64,000 bases of DNA from Aeromonas aquatica (GTDB lineage: Bacteria > Pseudomonadota > Gammaproteobacteria > Enterobacterales > Aeromonadaceae): NCBI RefSeq assembly GCF_000764655.1, contig NZ_JRGL01000162.1, forward strand, positions 1 to 64,000, given 5' to 3'. Below the pieces are notes generated by a model. The model was not told the origin of the DNA. It ran no database searches and saw only the letters and a list, made by a program, of their open reading frames with translations. The translations under genes were made by a program, and so were the position numbers. Positions 1,350-56,763 of the stretch are shown piece after piece. The first letter of the stretch is position 1. The number at the start of each line of letters is the position of its first letter.

Positions 1350-1371
1350 ACAAAAAACGGCGCTTTCCGGT

Positions 1372-1607
1372 GCCAATCTCGGAGAACTTGCCGGGCTGGT
1401 ATCGGCATCCTTTCCGTCAATAACATACTCGCGCACCTCGGGCGCCAATCTTGGAGAAAGTGCTGGGCTGGTATCAGCATCGTTCCCGTTAATGACAAAC
1501 TCGCGCACTTCGGGCGCCAATCTTGGAGAAAGTGCTGGGCTGGTATCAGCATCGTTCCCGTTAATGACAAACTCGCGCACTTCGGGCGCCAATCTTGGAG
1601 AAATATC
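1372..1607 (+). repeat. 72-bp tandem repeat carrying the tatA ribosome-binding site
   Basis: Units begin at about 1372, 1444, 1516 and 1588, an exact 72-bp period. The first unit is diverged, the second and third are nearly identical, and the fourth is interrupted by the tatA start. Every unit carries GCCAATCTTGGAGAA or a close variant, so the Shine-Dalgarno sequence is present four times, but only the last is followed by a real start codon. After the SD, each upstream unit keeps GGTATCAG at the same distance as codons 2-5 of tatA, so the unit seems to be a decayed copy of the tatA initiation region. Confidence 0.9.
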
Positions 1608-50005: not shown

Positions 50006-50170
50006 CTGCCATCTCGCCAGGATCTGACGCAATGGTGAAAGCGCTCAAGCGGCTCTGTCTTACCTTGGTTGGCAGCCCTGGCTGCTGCGCCTCCATGCGG
50101 GCCTTGGGCTTGGTGAATGATCATCTCGTCGCCGGCCCCTGTCAGGCCCCCTGCCAGCAGGACCAGGGGT
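50006..50170 (+). pseudogene. Decayed partial duplicate of the tag 3' end
   Basis: The stretch repeats the last ~53 codons of tag at an offset of 214 bases. In translation it reads SDAMVKALKRLCLTLVGS and later GLVNDHLVAGPC, against SDAMAKALKKLGFTFVGS and GMVNDHLVICPC in Tag. The reading frame is kept across the copy, but there is no proper start and the stop codon is lost (CAGGACCAG in place of CAAGGCTAA). It lies behind the tag terminator, so it is a gene remnant made by tandem duplication. Confidence 0.8.
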
Positions 50171-50248
50171 CCGTTTTTCGGCGCTCGGTACAGCCGGCAT
50201 ACAGTAACTGCTGCTCAAAATTGGGACATTCATCACGAGGATTTACCT

Positions 50249-50503
50249 ATGTCACTGAACTCATTTCGTCACCGTACCCTCGGCACCCTGATCCTGGCGG
50301 GTTGTTCCCTGCTGGCGACCTTGCCTGCCCAGGCGGCCGATCGCCAGGATTCCCGCGACGTGCGTCAGGAGGTGCGTCCCGAAGTCCGTGAGGCTACGCA
50401 GGACTGCCGCGAGGCCGATCAGAAGAACAACATCGAATGCCGTCAGGACAAGCATGACGTCAAGCAAGGGGCTCGTGAGAAGAGCCGCGACGTCAAATAC
50501 TGA
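50249..50503 (+). CDS. Small secreted Arg/Asp/Gln-rich protein, paralogue 1 of 4
   Basis: An 84-residue protein with a signal peptide (cleavage after PAQA) and a mature part of about 55 residues dominated by Arg, Asp, Gln and Lys. Two cysteines sit in QDCREA and IECRQD and may form a disulfide; the protein ends RDVKY. The Met at 50249 starts the signal peptide. It is the most diverged of four tandem paralogues, containing EVRPEVRE in place of the usual QxxRQES. Function unknown. Confidence 0.78.
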   Translation: MSLNSFRHRTLGTLILAGCSLLATLPAQAADRQDSRDVRQEVRPEVREATQDCREADQKNNIECRQDKHDVKQGAREKSRDVKY

Positions 50504-50556
50504 TCCACCGCCCAGGACCGCAGCAACCTCAGCCCGAATAACCAGGGAGCCTCAAT

Positions 50557-50829
50557 ATGAACGCTGTCACTCCTCATAATGCCCGTAGCGCGCTGCTGTC
50601 TGCCCTGCTGGCTGGTTGTTCCCTGTTGGTAGCCCTGCCGGCTCAGGCCACCGAACAAGCCCAGCAGCGTCGCGACGCGCGGGATCTGCGCCAGGCAGTC
50701 CGTCAGGAGTCTCGCGAACAGAAGCGCGACTGTCGTCAGGAAGAGTTCCTTGGCAACGCCGATTGCCGCCAGGAGCATCGCCACCACAAGCAAGATGCGC
50801 GCGAAGCGGCACGCGATATCAAATATTGA
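50557..50829 (+). CDS. Small secreted Arg/Asp/Gln-rich protein, paralogue 2 of 4
   Basis: A 90-residue protein; signal peptide through LPAQA, then repeated R-x-x-R and D-x-R units, cysteines in RDCRQE and ADCRQE, a His-rich patch (EHRHHKQD) and the end RDIKY. It starts 53 bases after paralogue 1 with GGGAGCCTCAAT before the ATG. The LLAGC within the signal looks like a lipobox, but the AQA site right after is the shared one in all four proteins. Function unknown. Confidence 0.78.
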   Translation: MNAVTPHNARSALLSALLAGCSLLVALPAQATEQAQQRRDARDLRQAVRQESREQKRDCRQEEFLGNADCRQEHRHHKQDAREAARDIKY

Positions 50830-50882
50830 GGCCGGGATGGGATCGTTCCCCCTGCCATTAACCCTTATTTATTGGAGTCCCC

Positions 50883-51137
50883 ATGACTATTTCTATCTCT
50901 CGCCTGAGCGCCACCCTGCTGACCGCTTGCACCCTGTTCGCCGCCGTGCCGGCTCAAGCCACCAATCAGGGTGAGCAGCGTCAGGATGCCCGTGACATCC
51001 GCCAGGACGGTCGTCAGGAATCCCGTGACGCCAAGCAGGAGTGCCGTGAGGGCGTGGTTGGCAACGCTGATTGTCGTCAGGACAACCGCGACAACAAACA
51101 AGAAAACCGTGACGAGGCTCGTGACGTCAAATATTGA
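50883..51137 (+). CDS. Small secreted Arg/Asp/Gln-rich protein, paralogue 3 of 4
   Basis: An 84-residue protein with the same plan: signal through VPAQA, a mature part with QDARDIRQD and SRDAKQECRE, second Cys in NADCRQD, and end RDVKY. GGAGTCCCC precedes the ATG, 53 bases after paralogue 2, the same spacing as between 1 and 2, consistent with duplication of gene plus spacer. Function unknown. Confidence 0.8.
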   Translation: MTISISRLSATLLTACTLFAAVPAQATNQGEQRQDARDIRQDGRQESRDAKQECREGVVGNADCRQDNRDNKQENRDEARDVKY

Positions 51138-51224
51138 TAGTCAGGGCTTGCCAGCCCAACGCCGGGCCCCGTGTATAATTGAGAGACGCCGATCCGCTGC
51201 GTTTCAATCACTTTAGGAGTCACC
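51138..51224 (+). promoter_or_regulatory. Possible internal promoter before paralogue 4
   Basis: A perfect TATAAT lies at 51174-51179, 46 bases before the paralogue 4 ATG. A TTGCCA at 51148-51153 is a poor -35 match with a 20-base spacer, so strength is uncertain. TAGGAGTCACC is the ribosome-binding site. Confidence 0.45.
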
Positions 51225-51467
51225 ATGAAGAAGTCCGTATTCATGCTGCTTGCCGCCACCGTCTTGTTGACTGCCCTGCCTGCGCAGGCCACCAAGCAGG
51301 CACAAGAGCGCCGTCAGGCTCGCGATGTACGCCAGGACACTCGCCAGGATTCCCGCGACGCCAAGCAAGATTGCCGCAATGGTTTGGTGGGCAATGCCGA
51401 TTGCCGCCAAGAACACCGCGACAACAAGCAGGAAGGGCGCGACCAGGCCCGCGACATCAAATATTGA
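51225..51467 (+). CDS. Small secreted Arg/Asp/Gln-rich protein, paralogue 4 of 4
   Basis: An 80-residue protein: signal MKKSVFMLLAATVLLTALPAQA (in part), mature part with ARDVRQDTRQDSRDAKQDCR, then NADCRQEHRDNKQEG and end RDIKY. It is closest to paralogue 3. Both cysteines are kept with the same spacing. Likely periplasmic or released; a highly charged small protein that could bind polyanions or form coiled helices (inference). Followed by a hairpin. Confidence 0.8.
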   Translation: MKKSVFMLLAATVLLTALPAQATKQAQERRQARDVRQDTRQDSRDAKQDCRNGLVGNADCRQEHRDNKQEGRDQARDIKY

Positions 51468-52356: not shown

Positions 52357-52704
52357 TCAGACCGCCGCGGTCAGTTGCACCTCGACCTTGTAGTCCTCGT
52401 GGGCGAGGCGAGCCTGCACGCAGGCGCGTACCGGGGCCGTGCCCGCCGGGAGCCAGGCATCCCACTGGGCATTGAAGGCGGCGATATCGCCGATGTCTTT
52501 CAGATAGATGTTGGCCATCAGTATCTTGTCGACCCCGGAGCCGTTGGCTTCCAGCAGGCGCTGCAGGCTGGTCAACACCTCGCGGGTCTGCTGGTGAATG
52601 TCGGCTTCATCCGTGGCGGGGACTTCAACCACATAGAGGGTGCCGTTGTGGATGACCACATCTGACCAACGCTGGGTGGTGCCGATTCGGGTAATGGCTG
52701 TCAT
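52357..52704 (-). CDS. RidA family protein (YjgF/YER057c/UK114)
   Basis: A 115-residue RidA-superfamily protein with GTLYVVEVPATDEADIHQQT, LEANGSGVDKILMANIYLKD and the near-terminal PVRACVQARLAHEDYKVEVQ segment that includes the Arg of the family pocket. Classical RidA hydrolyses reactive enamines and imines; this one belongs to a side group. The Met at 52704 has AGGAAGAG upstream. It lies 20 bases after tusA on the same strand, so they probably share a transcript. Confidence 0.85.
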   Translation of the reverse strand: MTAITRIGTTQRWSDVVIHNGTLYVVEVPATDEADIHQQTREVLTSLQRLLEANGSGVDKILMANIYLKDIGDIAAFNAQWDAWLPAGTAPVRACVQARLAHEDYKVEVQLTAAV

Positions 52705-52724
52705 GGACTCTTCCTGCATGGGGA

Positions 52725-52970
52725 TCATTGACCCTTGCGGATCAGATAGCGGTAAGGAGCCTGCTCGATTTCGCTGGCGATCAGGGTGTGATCCATGAAA
52801 CGGCAGAAACTGGGAATGTCGCGGGTGGTGGAGGGATCGTCGGCGCTGACCAGCAGGGTCTCCCCCTCGGCCATCAGCCGCACTTTCTTGCGCACCATCA
52901 TCACGGGTTCCGGGCAACGAAGCCCAATTGCGTCCAACTCATGAGTTGCGTCGCAGAATAAATTACTCAT
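52725..52970 (-). CDS. tusA: Sulfurtransferase TusA
   Basis: An 81-residue TusA (SirA-like) protein with the catalytic CPEP motif (Cys19). It accepts persulfide sulfur from IscS and passes it on, mainly for 2-thiouridine of t[23 protein letters not shown] (20 residues) matches the family. Its ATG overlaps by one base the stop of the last of five truncated copies of its own start region, so its ribosome-binding site (AAGG) lies inside that copy. Followed by the RidA-like gene. Confidence 0.95.
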
Positions 52971-53080
52971 TAATAATCAACCTTCAGCCACACTTTCTTG
53001 CGCGCTATCGTCACGGGTTCGGGGCAACGAAGCCCGATTGCGTCCAACTCATGAGTTGCGTTGCAGAATAAATTACTCAT
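52970..53080 (-). CDS. Mini-TusA ORF, copy 1 (adjacent to tusA)
   Basis: 36 codons, beginning [13 protein letters not shown], keeping [15 protein letters not shown] and ending WLKVDY. The TAA stop shares its last base with the tusA ATG. It equals the first strand and helix of TusA, including the catalytic Cys. Product unproven. Confidence 0.45.
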
Positions 53081-53190
53081 TAATAATCAACCTTCAGCCG
53101 CACTTTCTTGCGCGCTATCGTCACGGGTTCCGGGCAACGAAGCCCGATTGCGTCCAACTCGTGAGTTGCGTCGCAGAATAAAGCACTCAT
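53080..53190 (-). CDS. Mini-TusA ORF, copy 2
   Basis: 36 codons, [13 protein letters not shown]...RCPEPV...RLKVDY, stop TAA overlapping the start of copy 1. Intact frame, no other start codon. Confidence 0.42.
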
Positions 53191-53300
53191 CAATAATCAA
53201 CCTTCAGCCACACTTTCTTGCGCGCTATCGTCACGGGTTCGGGGCAACGAAGCCCGATTGCGTCCAGCTCGTGAGTCGCATCGCAGAATAAAGTAGTCAT
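53190..53300 (-). CDS. Mini-TusA ORF, copy 3
   Basis: 36 codons beginning [13 protein letters not shown] and ending WLKVDY, with RCPEPV kept. The stop is TGA, giving TGATG overlap with copy 2. Confidence 0.42.
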
Positions 53301-53410
53301 TAATAATCAACCTTCAGCCGCACTTTCTTGCGCGCTATCGTCACGGGTTCGGGGCAACGAAGCCCGATTGCGTCCAACTCGTGAGTCGCATCGCAGAATA
53401 AAGTAGTCAT
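53300..53410 (-). CDS. Mini-TusA ORF, copy 4
   Basis: 36 codons beginning [13 protein letters not shown] and ending RLKVDY, with RCPEPV kept. TAA overlaps the start of copy 3. Confidence 0.42.
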
Positions 53411-53520
53411 TAATAATCAACCTTCAGCCGCACTTTCTTGCGCGCTATCGTCACGGGTTCGGGGCAACGAAGCCCGATTGCGTCCAACTCATGAGTTGCG
53501 TCGCAGAATAAAGCACTCAT
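53410..53520 (-). CDS. Mini-TusA ORF, copy 5 (promoter-proximal)
   Basis: 36 codons beginning [13 protein letters not shown] and ending RLKVDY. Its own leader GAAGGTTGATTATTG matches the repeat leader and carries the first ribosome-binding site of the array. Confidence 0.42.
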
Positions 53521-53691
53521 CAATAATCAACCTTCAACCAATTCAGCTGCCAATGATACTAAAGGCGAAAAAATAATCAAATAATAGGGCTGCTATGCAG
53601 CATATGTAACCAAAGTGTGATCTGACCCTATCCAGCTCCTGCCCGATGAGTAATATAAAAATTGAATCATATTCAACAAGGAGGTGTGAAT
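53521..53691. other. Divergent control region of the tusA array and the 63-residue membrane protein
   Basis: AT-rich 170 bases with promoters for both directions. On the plus strand AAGGAGGTG lies 7 bases before the small gene, an almost ideal Shine-Dalgarno. No gene seen. Confidence 0.5.
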
Positions 53692-53883
53692 ATGCAGGTC
53701 TCCTACGGCAGATTACAAGCCTACGCAGGCATGGGGTTCCTGTCTTTCGCCATGATAGTGCTGGGCAGTCCGATCGGAAACACCGGCACCTGGTTCGGGT
53801 CCATGGTGATGATAGGGCTGGGGCTCTGGATCGAGCTCAGCGACTACTACGACGAGGACGAAGACGAGAACGATCGCTCTTGA
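53692..53883 (+). CDS. Small membrane protein with acidic tail
   Basis: A 63-residue protein with two hydrophobic segments (about 10-26 and 32-50) and a strongly acidic end (YYDEDEDENDRS). The Met at 53692 is chosen because of the strong AAGGAGGTG before it. No family recognised. It stands alone and ends at a hairpin shared with the solute-binding protein gene. Confidence 0.7.
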   Translation: MQVSYGRLQAYAGMGFLSFAMIVLGSPIGNTGTWFGSMVMIGLGLWIELSDYYDEDEDENDRS

Positions 53884-55189: not shown

Positions 55190-56635
55190 TTACTGCCTTG
55201 GTAGGGAGAGGGTGGCCTGCAGGCCACCCTGGGGGCGATTTTCCAGCACCAGATCGCCGCCGTGGGCGTGGGCGATGTTGCGGGCGATGCCGAGGCCGAG
55301 GCCGGTGCCGGCAGCGTCCGTGCTCAAGCGGTAATAGGGCTCGAAGATGCGTTCGAGCTGATCTTCCGGCAGGCCCTGACCCTCGTCCATGATGAACAGG
55401 ATCAGCATCTCCTCGTCATCCATGACGATGATGCGCACGCGCTGGCCGTACTTGATGCCATTGTCCACCAGGTTGCCGATGCAGCGCTTGAGTGCCAGCA
55501 ACTTGCCGCGGTAGGGCCACTTGCAGTGCCCCTCGATGATGAGCAGGTCCTGGTGCAGGTTCATGGACTCCGCCATCTGCTCCAGCAGGGCGTTGACGTC
55601 GATCTGCTCGAGGTTCTCGTGAATGTCGGTCTCCTTGACCGTCTGCAGCGCCCCTTTCACCATCAGCTCCAGCTCGTCGAGATCCTTGTTGAACTTGCCG
55701 ATCTGGGTCTCGTTGTCGAGCAGCTCGACCCGCAGCCGCAGCCGGGTGATGGGGGTCTTGAGATCGTGGGAGATGGAGCTGAACAGTCGCTCCCTGTCAT
55801 CGATGAAGCGGCGGATACGCTGCTGCATGATGTTGAAGGCGCGGGTTGCCGCCACTATCTCGGAGGCCCCTTCCTCCTTGAGGGGGGGCTGGTCGATGTC
55901 CTTGCCGAGATTGACCGCCGCCTTGGCGAGCCGGCGCAGGGGCCGGGTCTGCCAGCGCACCAGCAGGAAGGTGAAGAAGCAGAGGAACACCGTCATCAGG
56001 GCGATGAAGCGTACCTGGTTGCTCGGCATCACGGTATCGTCGAGCGTCATGTAGGGGGCGGGCAACAGGGCCGCCAGGTAGAGCCACTCCCCCGGCTCTA
56101 TCTCGATCTGGGTCACCAGCACCGGGGGATTGATGGGTTCGAGGGAGAGGGTGTAGCGGGCCCAGGAGGAGGGCAGATCCGCCAGCAGGGTGTCGTTGTT
56201 GAAGACGTGCAGCTCTTCCGGACGGGAGAAGTCCACCTTGATGGCCATGGCGTCGGAGAGCTTGCGGGCGAGCACCTCCTCCACCTCCTTCAGCACCAGC
56301 GTCTTGCGCTCGCTGTCCGGGATGGCGCTGATGTGGATCTCCTCCTCGTTCAGCGACACGAAGAAGCGGCTGCCCCCCATGTTGCGCAGCTGGTCCAGCG
56401 CGATATGGCGGTACTGCAGCGGCAGGGACTTGAAGAAGTTGACTGTGGAGGCGGCCGACAGCGCCAGGTTGCGGGTGGTGCTGAGCATGCCTTCCAGCTC
56501 CCGCTTCTGGATCTGCTGCATCCAGATGCCGGTGAGTATGGTCTGGGAGAGCAGGATGGCGAGCAGCAACAGCAACAGCATCCGCGACAGCAGGGAGCGG
56601 GGCACCAGCGCCTGCCAGAACCGCCGGCTTTTCAT
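55190..56635 (-). CDS. Sensor histidine kinase
   Basis: A 481-residue membrane kinase: first membrane helix (about 18-38), a ~165-residue periplasmic sensor, second helix (about 205-225), HAMP, then HisKA with SSISHDLKTPITRLRLR (phospho-acceptor His), and HATPase_c with NLVDNGIKYG, DEGQGLP and GTGLGLGIA. It should phosphorylate the regulator encoded upstream. Its ATG overlaps the stop of a 26-codon mini-ORF created by a 77-bp duplication. The Lys-rich NEEEIHISA periplasmic segment gives no ligand clue. Confidence 0.92.
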   Translation of the reverse strand: MKSRRFWQALVPRSLLSRMLLLLLLAILLSQTILTGIWMQQIQKRELEGMLSTTRNLALSAASTVNFFKSLPLQYRHIALDQLRNMGGSRFFVSLNEEEIHISAIPDSERKTLVLKEVEEVLARKLSDAMAIKVDFSRPEELHVFNNDTLLADLPSSWARYTLSLEPINPPVLVTQIEIEPGEWLYLAALLPAPYMTLDDTVMPSNQVRFIALMTVFLCFFTFLLVRWQTRPLRRLAKAAVNLGKDIDQPPLKEEGASEIVAATRAFNIMQQRIRRFIDDRERLFSSISHDLKTPITRLRLRVELLDNETQIGKFNKDLDELELMVKGALQTVKETDIHENLEQIDVNALLEQMAESMNLHQDLLIIEGHCKWPYRGKLLALKRCIGNLVDNGIKYGQRVRIIVMDDEEMLILFIMDEGQGLPEDQLERIFEPYYRLSTDAAGTGLGLGIARNIAHAHGGDLVLENRPQGGLQATLSLPRQ

Positions 56636-56763
56636 GGGATCTCGTGCCTCTTGTCGATCAGCGGGTAGCCGCTGCTATGGCGCTGCGCCTGCCAGAACGT
56701 CTGGTCTTTCATGGGATCTCGTGGACTTCGGCGATCAGCATGTAGCCGCTGCCCCGTATGGTC
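56610..56763 (-). repeat. 77-bp tandem duplication at the response regulator/kinase junction
   Basis: GCCTGCCAGAA occurs at 56610 and again at 56687, and TTTCATGGGATCTCGTG at both junctions, 77 bases apart. Homology extends to GTAGCCGCTGC on each copy. The unit covers the last ~15 codons of the regulator and the first ~9 codons of the kinase. 77 is 26 codons minus one base, so the stop/start overlap is regenerated. Confidence 0.9.
56632..56712 (-). CDS. 26-codon mini-ORF between response regulator and kinase
   Basis: Starts MKDQTFWQAQ, like the kinase MKSRRFWQAL, and ends SGYPLIDKRHEIP, like the regulator SGYMLIAEVHEIP. Its ATG overlaps the regulator stop and its TGA overlaps the kinase ATG, both as ATGA. 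It is thus a chimera of the two gene ends and would carry ribosomes from the regulator to the kinase. Product unproven. Confidence 0.45.
   Translation of the reverse strand: MKDQTFWQAQRHSSGYPLIDKRHEIP

Follow-up and report, generated by a model that had tools for sequence, protein, structure and literature searches.

The window analysed here is a 64,000-nucleotide stretch of Aeromonas aquatica DNA. On its minus strand, tusA (52725..52970, 81 codons) is directly preceded by five units of 110 bp each (52971-53520), every one an ATG-initiated open reading frame (ORF) of 36 codons that copies the first 33 codons of tusA. Unit 1 (53411..53520) is furthest upstream and starts behind the native leader; it is followed by unit 2 (53301..53410), unit 3 (53191..53300), unit 4 (53081..53190) and unit 5 (52971..53080), which lies next to tusA. 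The unit ATGs are at 53520, 53410, 53300, 53190 and 53080, respectively. Tandem Repeats Finder detects a single array across this region (52874-53536; period 110, 6.0 copies, 94% matches, score 1151), the sixth copy of which is the start of tusA itself. The N-termini read MTTLFC in units 2 and 3, MSALFC in unit 4 and MSNLFCN in unit 5, and R31W is found in units 3 and 5. All five units end in KVDY, carry an intact CPEP motif and read TIA where tusA reads MMV. Each stop codon shares one base with the following ATG, as TAATG in four cases and as TGATG in one (unit 3). The original prediction of five chained mini-TusA ORFs upstream of tusA is confirmed by the repeat and ORF coordinates, as are, for the five window units, the retained CPEP and the one-base overlaps. 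Any two window units are separated by 2-8 differences, and each of them by at least 15 from tusA; their amplification from a common unit, also proposed, is supported.

A Shine-Dalgarno (SD)-like sequence, GAAGGTTGA, occurs in the 3' end of each unit, finishing 6 bases ahead of the next ATG, and tusA is itself preceded by a unit-borne copy. The native leader (53521..53552, minus strand), in which the message would start, also contains GAAGGTTGA. A promoter-like TTGATT-16-TATCAT lies upstream of unit 1 (53553..53580, minus strand). Both promoter-like sites found in 52700-53700, where 1.3 are expected by chance, are upstream of unit 1, so the units and tusA would share one message. By eye, a similar site lies upstream of tusA in most of 38 Aeromonas loci, with or without an array. 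A Ribonuc_L-PSP (RidA) family gene is situated directly downstream of tusA (52357..52701, minus strand), presumably in the same operon. An Rfam search of 52600-53800 returned no known RNA family up to E = 1. By Pfam, the full-length gene is a normal TusA with a whole-domain match to PF01206 (E 1.4e-21; 76.6 bits against a curated cut-off of 28.6), unlike the units, of which the one tested matches 22 of the 70 profile positions (1-22) at 21.4 bits, under the family cut-off.

tusA is present in all 37 Aeromonas species genomes, and array units occur in 10 of them, carrying 1, 2 or 5. Five units are found in the window genome, two each at L002 (A. tecta), L003 and L004, and one each at L005 (A. 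bestiarum), L006 (A. popoffii), L007, L008, L009 and L010. Outside these species genomes, A. caviae KAM479 (L031) has three. The species were named through loci whose flanks are identical. Repeat number therefore differs between genomes (0, 1, 2, 3 or 5 units), a comparison that had been suggested. All 11 arrays consist of abutting units (20 in total) with a period of 110 throughout, as in a tandem duplication. The original prediction had held that an array confined to one assembly would point to a neutral duplication or an assembly artefact; the array is not so confined, as 10 of the 37 species genomes and KAM479 carry it. A single-assembly artefact is ruled out, since the one-contig genomes G002 and G029 and the complete record NZ_AP026896 also have arrays.

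In a sample of 394 genomes of the order, 346 matched the unit peptide (E <= 0.001), and more than one match was seen only in Aeromonas (7 of the 21 Aeromonas genomes in that sample). A search for the motif RCPxP in 67 loci, 66 of them non-Aeromonas, gave extra matches in 9, none of which was a second tusA start by eye; this search missed the unit of L046 (A. bestiarum), where the Cys is lost. In 72,556 plasmid-collection records, a unit match was found only in the A. caviae record NZ_AP026896. That record (NZ_AP026896.1) is 4.94 Mb long with only 18 annotated features in that collection and is chromosome-like, although labelled plasmid pKAM479_3. Within the genomes and collections searched, the array is found only in Aeromonas, and no account of a tusA start array was found in open-licence papers.

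None of the 20 units is interrupted or departs from 110 bp, and every one overlaps the ATG that follows, by one base in 13 cases and as ATGA in 7. This is the stop-start overlap of a translationally coupled gene chain, and the original prediction listed a ribosome relay that sets TusA level among the possible roles. In such a relay, ribosomes would pass from unit to unit by termination and reinitiation, unit number would tune TusA and selection would keep the chain. The overlap is indeed kept in 20 of 20 units, but it follows from the repeat itself: mini-ORFs form an overlapping chain because the period is 2 modulo 3 and the start reads ATGA. At the next start, the 110-bp period places the frame of a unit in one that ends at TAA or TGA or, where these are missing, at the TGA within ATGA. 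Of the three frames through the native leader, one has a stop that overlaps the ATG, and the stops of the other two lie 6 and 13 bases before it (hand-counted positions); a random junction would give the chaining frame in one case out of three. Frame-breaking units, which had been named as a sign of neutral duplication or artefact, are absent from the 20. Zero stops has a probability of about 0.76 under neutrality, in a calculation that covers substitutions, and the lack of stops is uninformative because it is expected from neutral youth. A neat array of overlapping, open mini-ORFs does not have to be functional; repeat length and youth account for the pattern in this case.

The translation of such a chain can be considered in the light of known coupled genes. 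In one study, strict coupling was reported for 13 of the 14 overlapping gene pairs tested (PMC6728339), and a review notes that, in the main study it covers, SDs aid coupling without being absolutely required (PMC12548453). The systems in these two sources share with the array stop-start overlaps of -1 and -4 nt and an SD-like sequence near the second start; in the array, the upstream partners are shortened copies of tusA itself, and coupling is a prediction from sequence. The units are probably translated and their peptides probably degraded, and TusA level could be affected. By folding prediction, tusA starts behind junctions are less accessible than native ones, with an opening cost of 6.6 versus 5.3 kcal/mol (P 0.010; 11 junction starts with 100 nt of upstream context, 27 native starts with 31 nt), which makes an effect on expression plausible. 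The array may shift TusA level modestly. Both the coupling of overlapping pairs and the predicted accessibility would suit a ribosome relay. On the other hand, the units retain their own SD-like sequences, and initiation could therefore proceed without a relay; 27 of the 37 species genomes do without the array; and a similar chain at an envZ-like kinase (see below) is missing in 10 of the 16 loci where a script pattern finds the copy. We consider a selected relay unlikely.

In order to compare substitutions, a change was counted as unit-specific if it occurred in no tusA allele of the 38, with the founder TIA excluded. There are 11 such changes, 2 synonymous and 9 nonsynonymous, the latter including C19Y, C19F, P22N (two changes), L17P and R31W. 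The neutral expectation is 12-13% synonymous (27% raw, before allowing for the excluded tusA variants), and 2 of 11 fits it (P of 2 or more, 0.42). In tusA, 10 of 12 changes are synonymous against about 20% expected (P about 4e-6; 30 alleles, with L030 and L112-L118 left out). Units and tusA differ by Fisher's test (P = 0.003, or 0.008 with P22N counted once). Change in the units is neutral-like while tusA is conserved, although the small number of unit-specific changes, 11, gives the test little power. The original prediction set neutral duplication beside assembly artefact as its alternative; the former gains from these substitutions, and the latter has been ruled out above.

Cys19 of CPEP, which we take to be the TusA active-site residue, is kept in 18 of 20 units and lost in those of L005 and L008. 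That the peptides might be functional, for example by carrying persulfide or by acting as decoys for partners of TusA, would agree with the intact CPEP of the five window units. The neutral-like pattern, the occurrence of C19Y, C19F, P22N and L17P among units and a profile match limited to positions 1-22 of 70 leave this extremely improbable, and functional micro-peptides, the persulfide-carrying kind originally suggested included, are rejected on the neutral-like change and the Cys loss. The claim that all copies carry TIA holds for the five window units and fails in the wider set, where 16 of 20 have the full TIA and the others read TMA (second unit of L004), MIV (L009), MIA (L010) and MMV (third unit of L031). 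We read these four as products of conversion by, or recombination with, tusA. Their occurrence fits gene conversion and fits more than one origin as well.

On a tree of the upstream flanks (37 rows, L021 omitted), the array needs at least 8 changes, 6 of which are forced by well-supported branches, and it shows no more clustering than labels shuffled at random (90 of 500 shuffles were as low). Codon 3 is N or T in tusA of all 11 array-bearing loci, in 7 of 9 inner units and in 1 of 27 array-free tusA genes; it is A or D in all 11 first units and in 26 of 27 array-free tusA genes. This pattern suggests that the inner sequence arrived as one block. At KAM479, the leader and first unit differ from the array-free L018 by 1 mismatch in 300 columns, and the same columns show 43 mismatches to the close relative L004. 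We read this mosaic as homologous recombination between species, which replaces array ends and is able to add or remove units.

The codon 3 pattern could also be expected of a scar left by a site-specific element that integrated in the tusA start and brought a replacement 5' end, since in 11 of 11 carriers the downstream start is unlike the local one. However, 50,697 phage records hold no similar sequence, two unit patterns have no exact match in viral contigs, and homologous recombination explains the KAM479 mosaic. Within the interval of leader, units and tusA, the 38 Aeromonas loci contain no insertion; no element or recombinase is seen at the site in these loci, and the searches of phage records and viral contigs did not show the site in a phage. 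An integration scar is accordingly very improbable. A phage origin is ruled out by the lack of similarity in phage records together with the lack of an exact match in viral contigs.

Copy number among the species genomes (0, 1, 2 or 5) bears on another proposal, a contingency switch in which recombination between units alters copy number within a population and hence TusA level. KAM479 has 3 units and G017 has 2, with upstream flanks 96.6% identical, but this difference includes the tract imported into KAM479. Repeats of 110 bp are long for fast slippage. Variable-number tandem repeat contingency loci likewise have a repeat number at a gene start that varies between genomes; the tusA array differs from them in its 110-bp unit and in that its variation is known from genome comparison. 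We hold a switch to be quite improbable, somewhat more so than a relay, and these data give no sign of selection for either.

Unit bases 70-110 show 9% divergence between the two main clades, or 6% without L010. Divergence at fourfold sites between the clades is 21% in the tusA tail and 31% in the upstream solute-binding gene, a comparison by which the arrays are either younger than the clades or constrained. Their youth depends on the yardstick, fourfold sites or all sites of the tusA tail, as the latter differ by 8.5% between clades, like unit bases 70-110. Recurrence across clades could reflect selection instead of passive exchange.

With reasonable confidence, we favor the view that the array is a young partial tandem duplication of the tusA translation-initiation region, spread by recombination and translated as a by-product. 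Tandem duplications form by slippage or unequal exchange. This one probably arose in the same way between two short similar sequences, presumably in a single slippage event; GGyTGAwGGy is present at codons 31-34 and in the leader. The founder unit would then have gained the MMV-to-TIA changes, copies would have been amplified and deleted by recombination among themselves, and the array would have been carried between Aeromonas species through homologous recombination in tusA. The duplication was tolerated because each unit has its own SD-like sequence and start, and tusA is intact. As in other tandem duplications, the units are head-to-tail, with short junction similarity and copy-number variation; here, in contrast, the unit spans a gene start and an SD-like sequence, forms chained mini-ORFs and is shared across species. 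Structure, distribution, neutral-like change and the interspecies recombination at KAM479 form the observed basis of this view, whereas a single origin by slippage, translation and any effect on TusA level are inferred. The gene-boundary duplications of similar size in Aeromonas samples (see below) also speak for it. Against a by-product, 20 of 20 open, exact-length, chained units are also predicted by a selective model. The evidence favors a tolerated young duplication over an evolved device.

The two other Tandem Repeats Finder arrays of the window also sit at gene starts. At 1365-1603 (plus strand), a 72-bp, 3.3-copy array holds degenerate copies of the start region of the gene behind it, which from its protein sequence we take to be tatA; the copies keep the SD-like GGAGAAA and have lost the ATG. 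One degenerate copy of this kind was seen by eye in several other Aeromonas. At 56608-56752 (minus strand), a 77-bp duplication lies between a presumed ompR-like regulator and a presumed envZ-like histidine kinase, so named from their protein sequences; the kinase has Pfam HisKA and HATPase_c domains. The duplication creates a 26-codon mini-ORF, MKDQTFWQAQRHSSGYPLIDKRHEIP, whose stop overlaps the kinase ATG. Among relatives, 22 of 30 loci were parsed and a script pattern for the copied regulator tail matched in 16, with the chain intact in 6 and not intact in 10; this pattern missed some copies visible by eye. The broken chains may have decayed from an intact one.

Near-tandem repeats across gene starts or ends were counted in samples of 400 kb per genome, taken as 20 blocks of 20 kb within the first 1.35 Mb. 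Three other Aeromonas genomes (G029, G003, G002; 1.2 Mb in total, L179-L218 and L239-L258) gave 5, 6 and 15, in total 26 for 999 predicted genes, at offsets between 60 and 171 (median 103). No such repeat was seen in any of three genomes from other genera (1.2 Mb in total, 1007 genes; Fisher P 1e-8). Not all of the 26 are independent, as a dnaA-dnaN duplication is counted three times and another gene start twice, and some have an unrelated spacer between copies. Near-tandem repeats of any class numbered 45 in Aeromonas and 12 in the other genera. Genes were called with a home-made finder, under which the tusA array itself was classed as 'other'. A cruder rule, counting repeats outside stop-to-stop frames of at least 120 codons, with chance frames counted as genes, yielded 5, 4 and 11 for the Aeromonas genomes and 1, 5 and 2 for the controls. 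Given the home-made calls and this cruder 20 versus 8, the size of the Aeromonas excess is uncertain. An earlier Tandem Repeats Finder count with fewer samples placed 3 of 5 (G029), 3 of 3 (G003) and 0 of 2 (G344) at gene boundaries. In 66 loci without an Aeromonas title (406 kb, all around tusA), no near-tandem repeats were found, and 14 Aeromonas loci (86 kb) contained 15: 3 in long frames, 6 with offsets over 300, which by their spacing are probably paralogous genes, 3 belonging to the tusA array and 3 others.

Starts are not favored over ends among the 26 (8 start only, 13 end only, 5 both). Their periods leave remainders of 0, 1 and 2 modulo 3 in 8, 4 and 14 cases (P 0.054, or 0.135 without two dnaA-dnaN repeats), which gives no firm frame preference. 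Aeromonas may make short gene-edge duplications unusually often, some 50-170 in each genome if the three samples are representative. We tentatively suggest that an unrecognised Aeromonas process, or an unusual tolerance, yields start or end duplications of about 100 bp, that the tusA array is one product of it, amplified and spread by recombination, and that chained mini-ORFs of this kind can tune the gene behind them; we regard this as a serious candidate that falls somewhat short of an even chance. If the excess holds, Aeromonas would be a natural laboratory for the origin, translation and decay of truncated gene copies and mini-ORFs, and could show whether duplicated start regions tune expression.

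The dnaA-dnaN duplication (65 bp; L199:1558-1688, L179:1267-1397, L239:1045-1175; genes presumed from their protein sequences) forms a mini-ORF of a dnaN head and a dnaA tail and is matched over its full length in 29 of the 37 Aeromonas genomes. At L191:6079-6285, the start of a gene that by its N-terminus is presumably mutL is duplicated over 105 bp, leaving a 33-codon mini-ORF just upstream of it. The start region of a presumably aminotransferase-like gene is duplicated in two Aeromonas genomes (L181:1321-1543 and L241:12817-12986; offsets 102 and 104). The ridA-like gene downstream of tusA has 118-bp tandem copies of its 3' end, 2.8 to 4.9 in number (L003:2247-2826, L004:2263-2706, L031:3951-4276, L112:2046-2388), a gene-end counterpart of the tusA array. 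Elsewhere in the window (50117-51467, plus strand), four successive similar small genes with signal-like starts and DARD/RQ-rich sequences are apparently paralogues.
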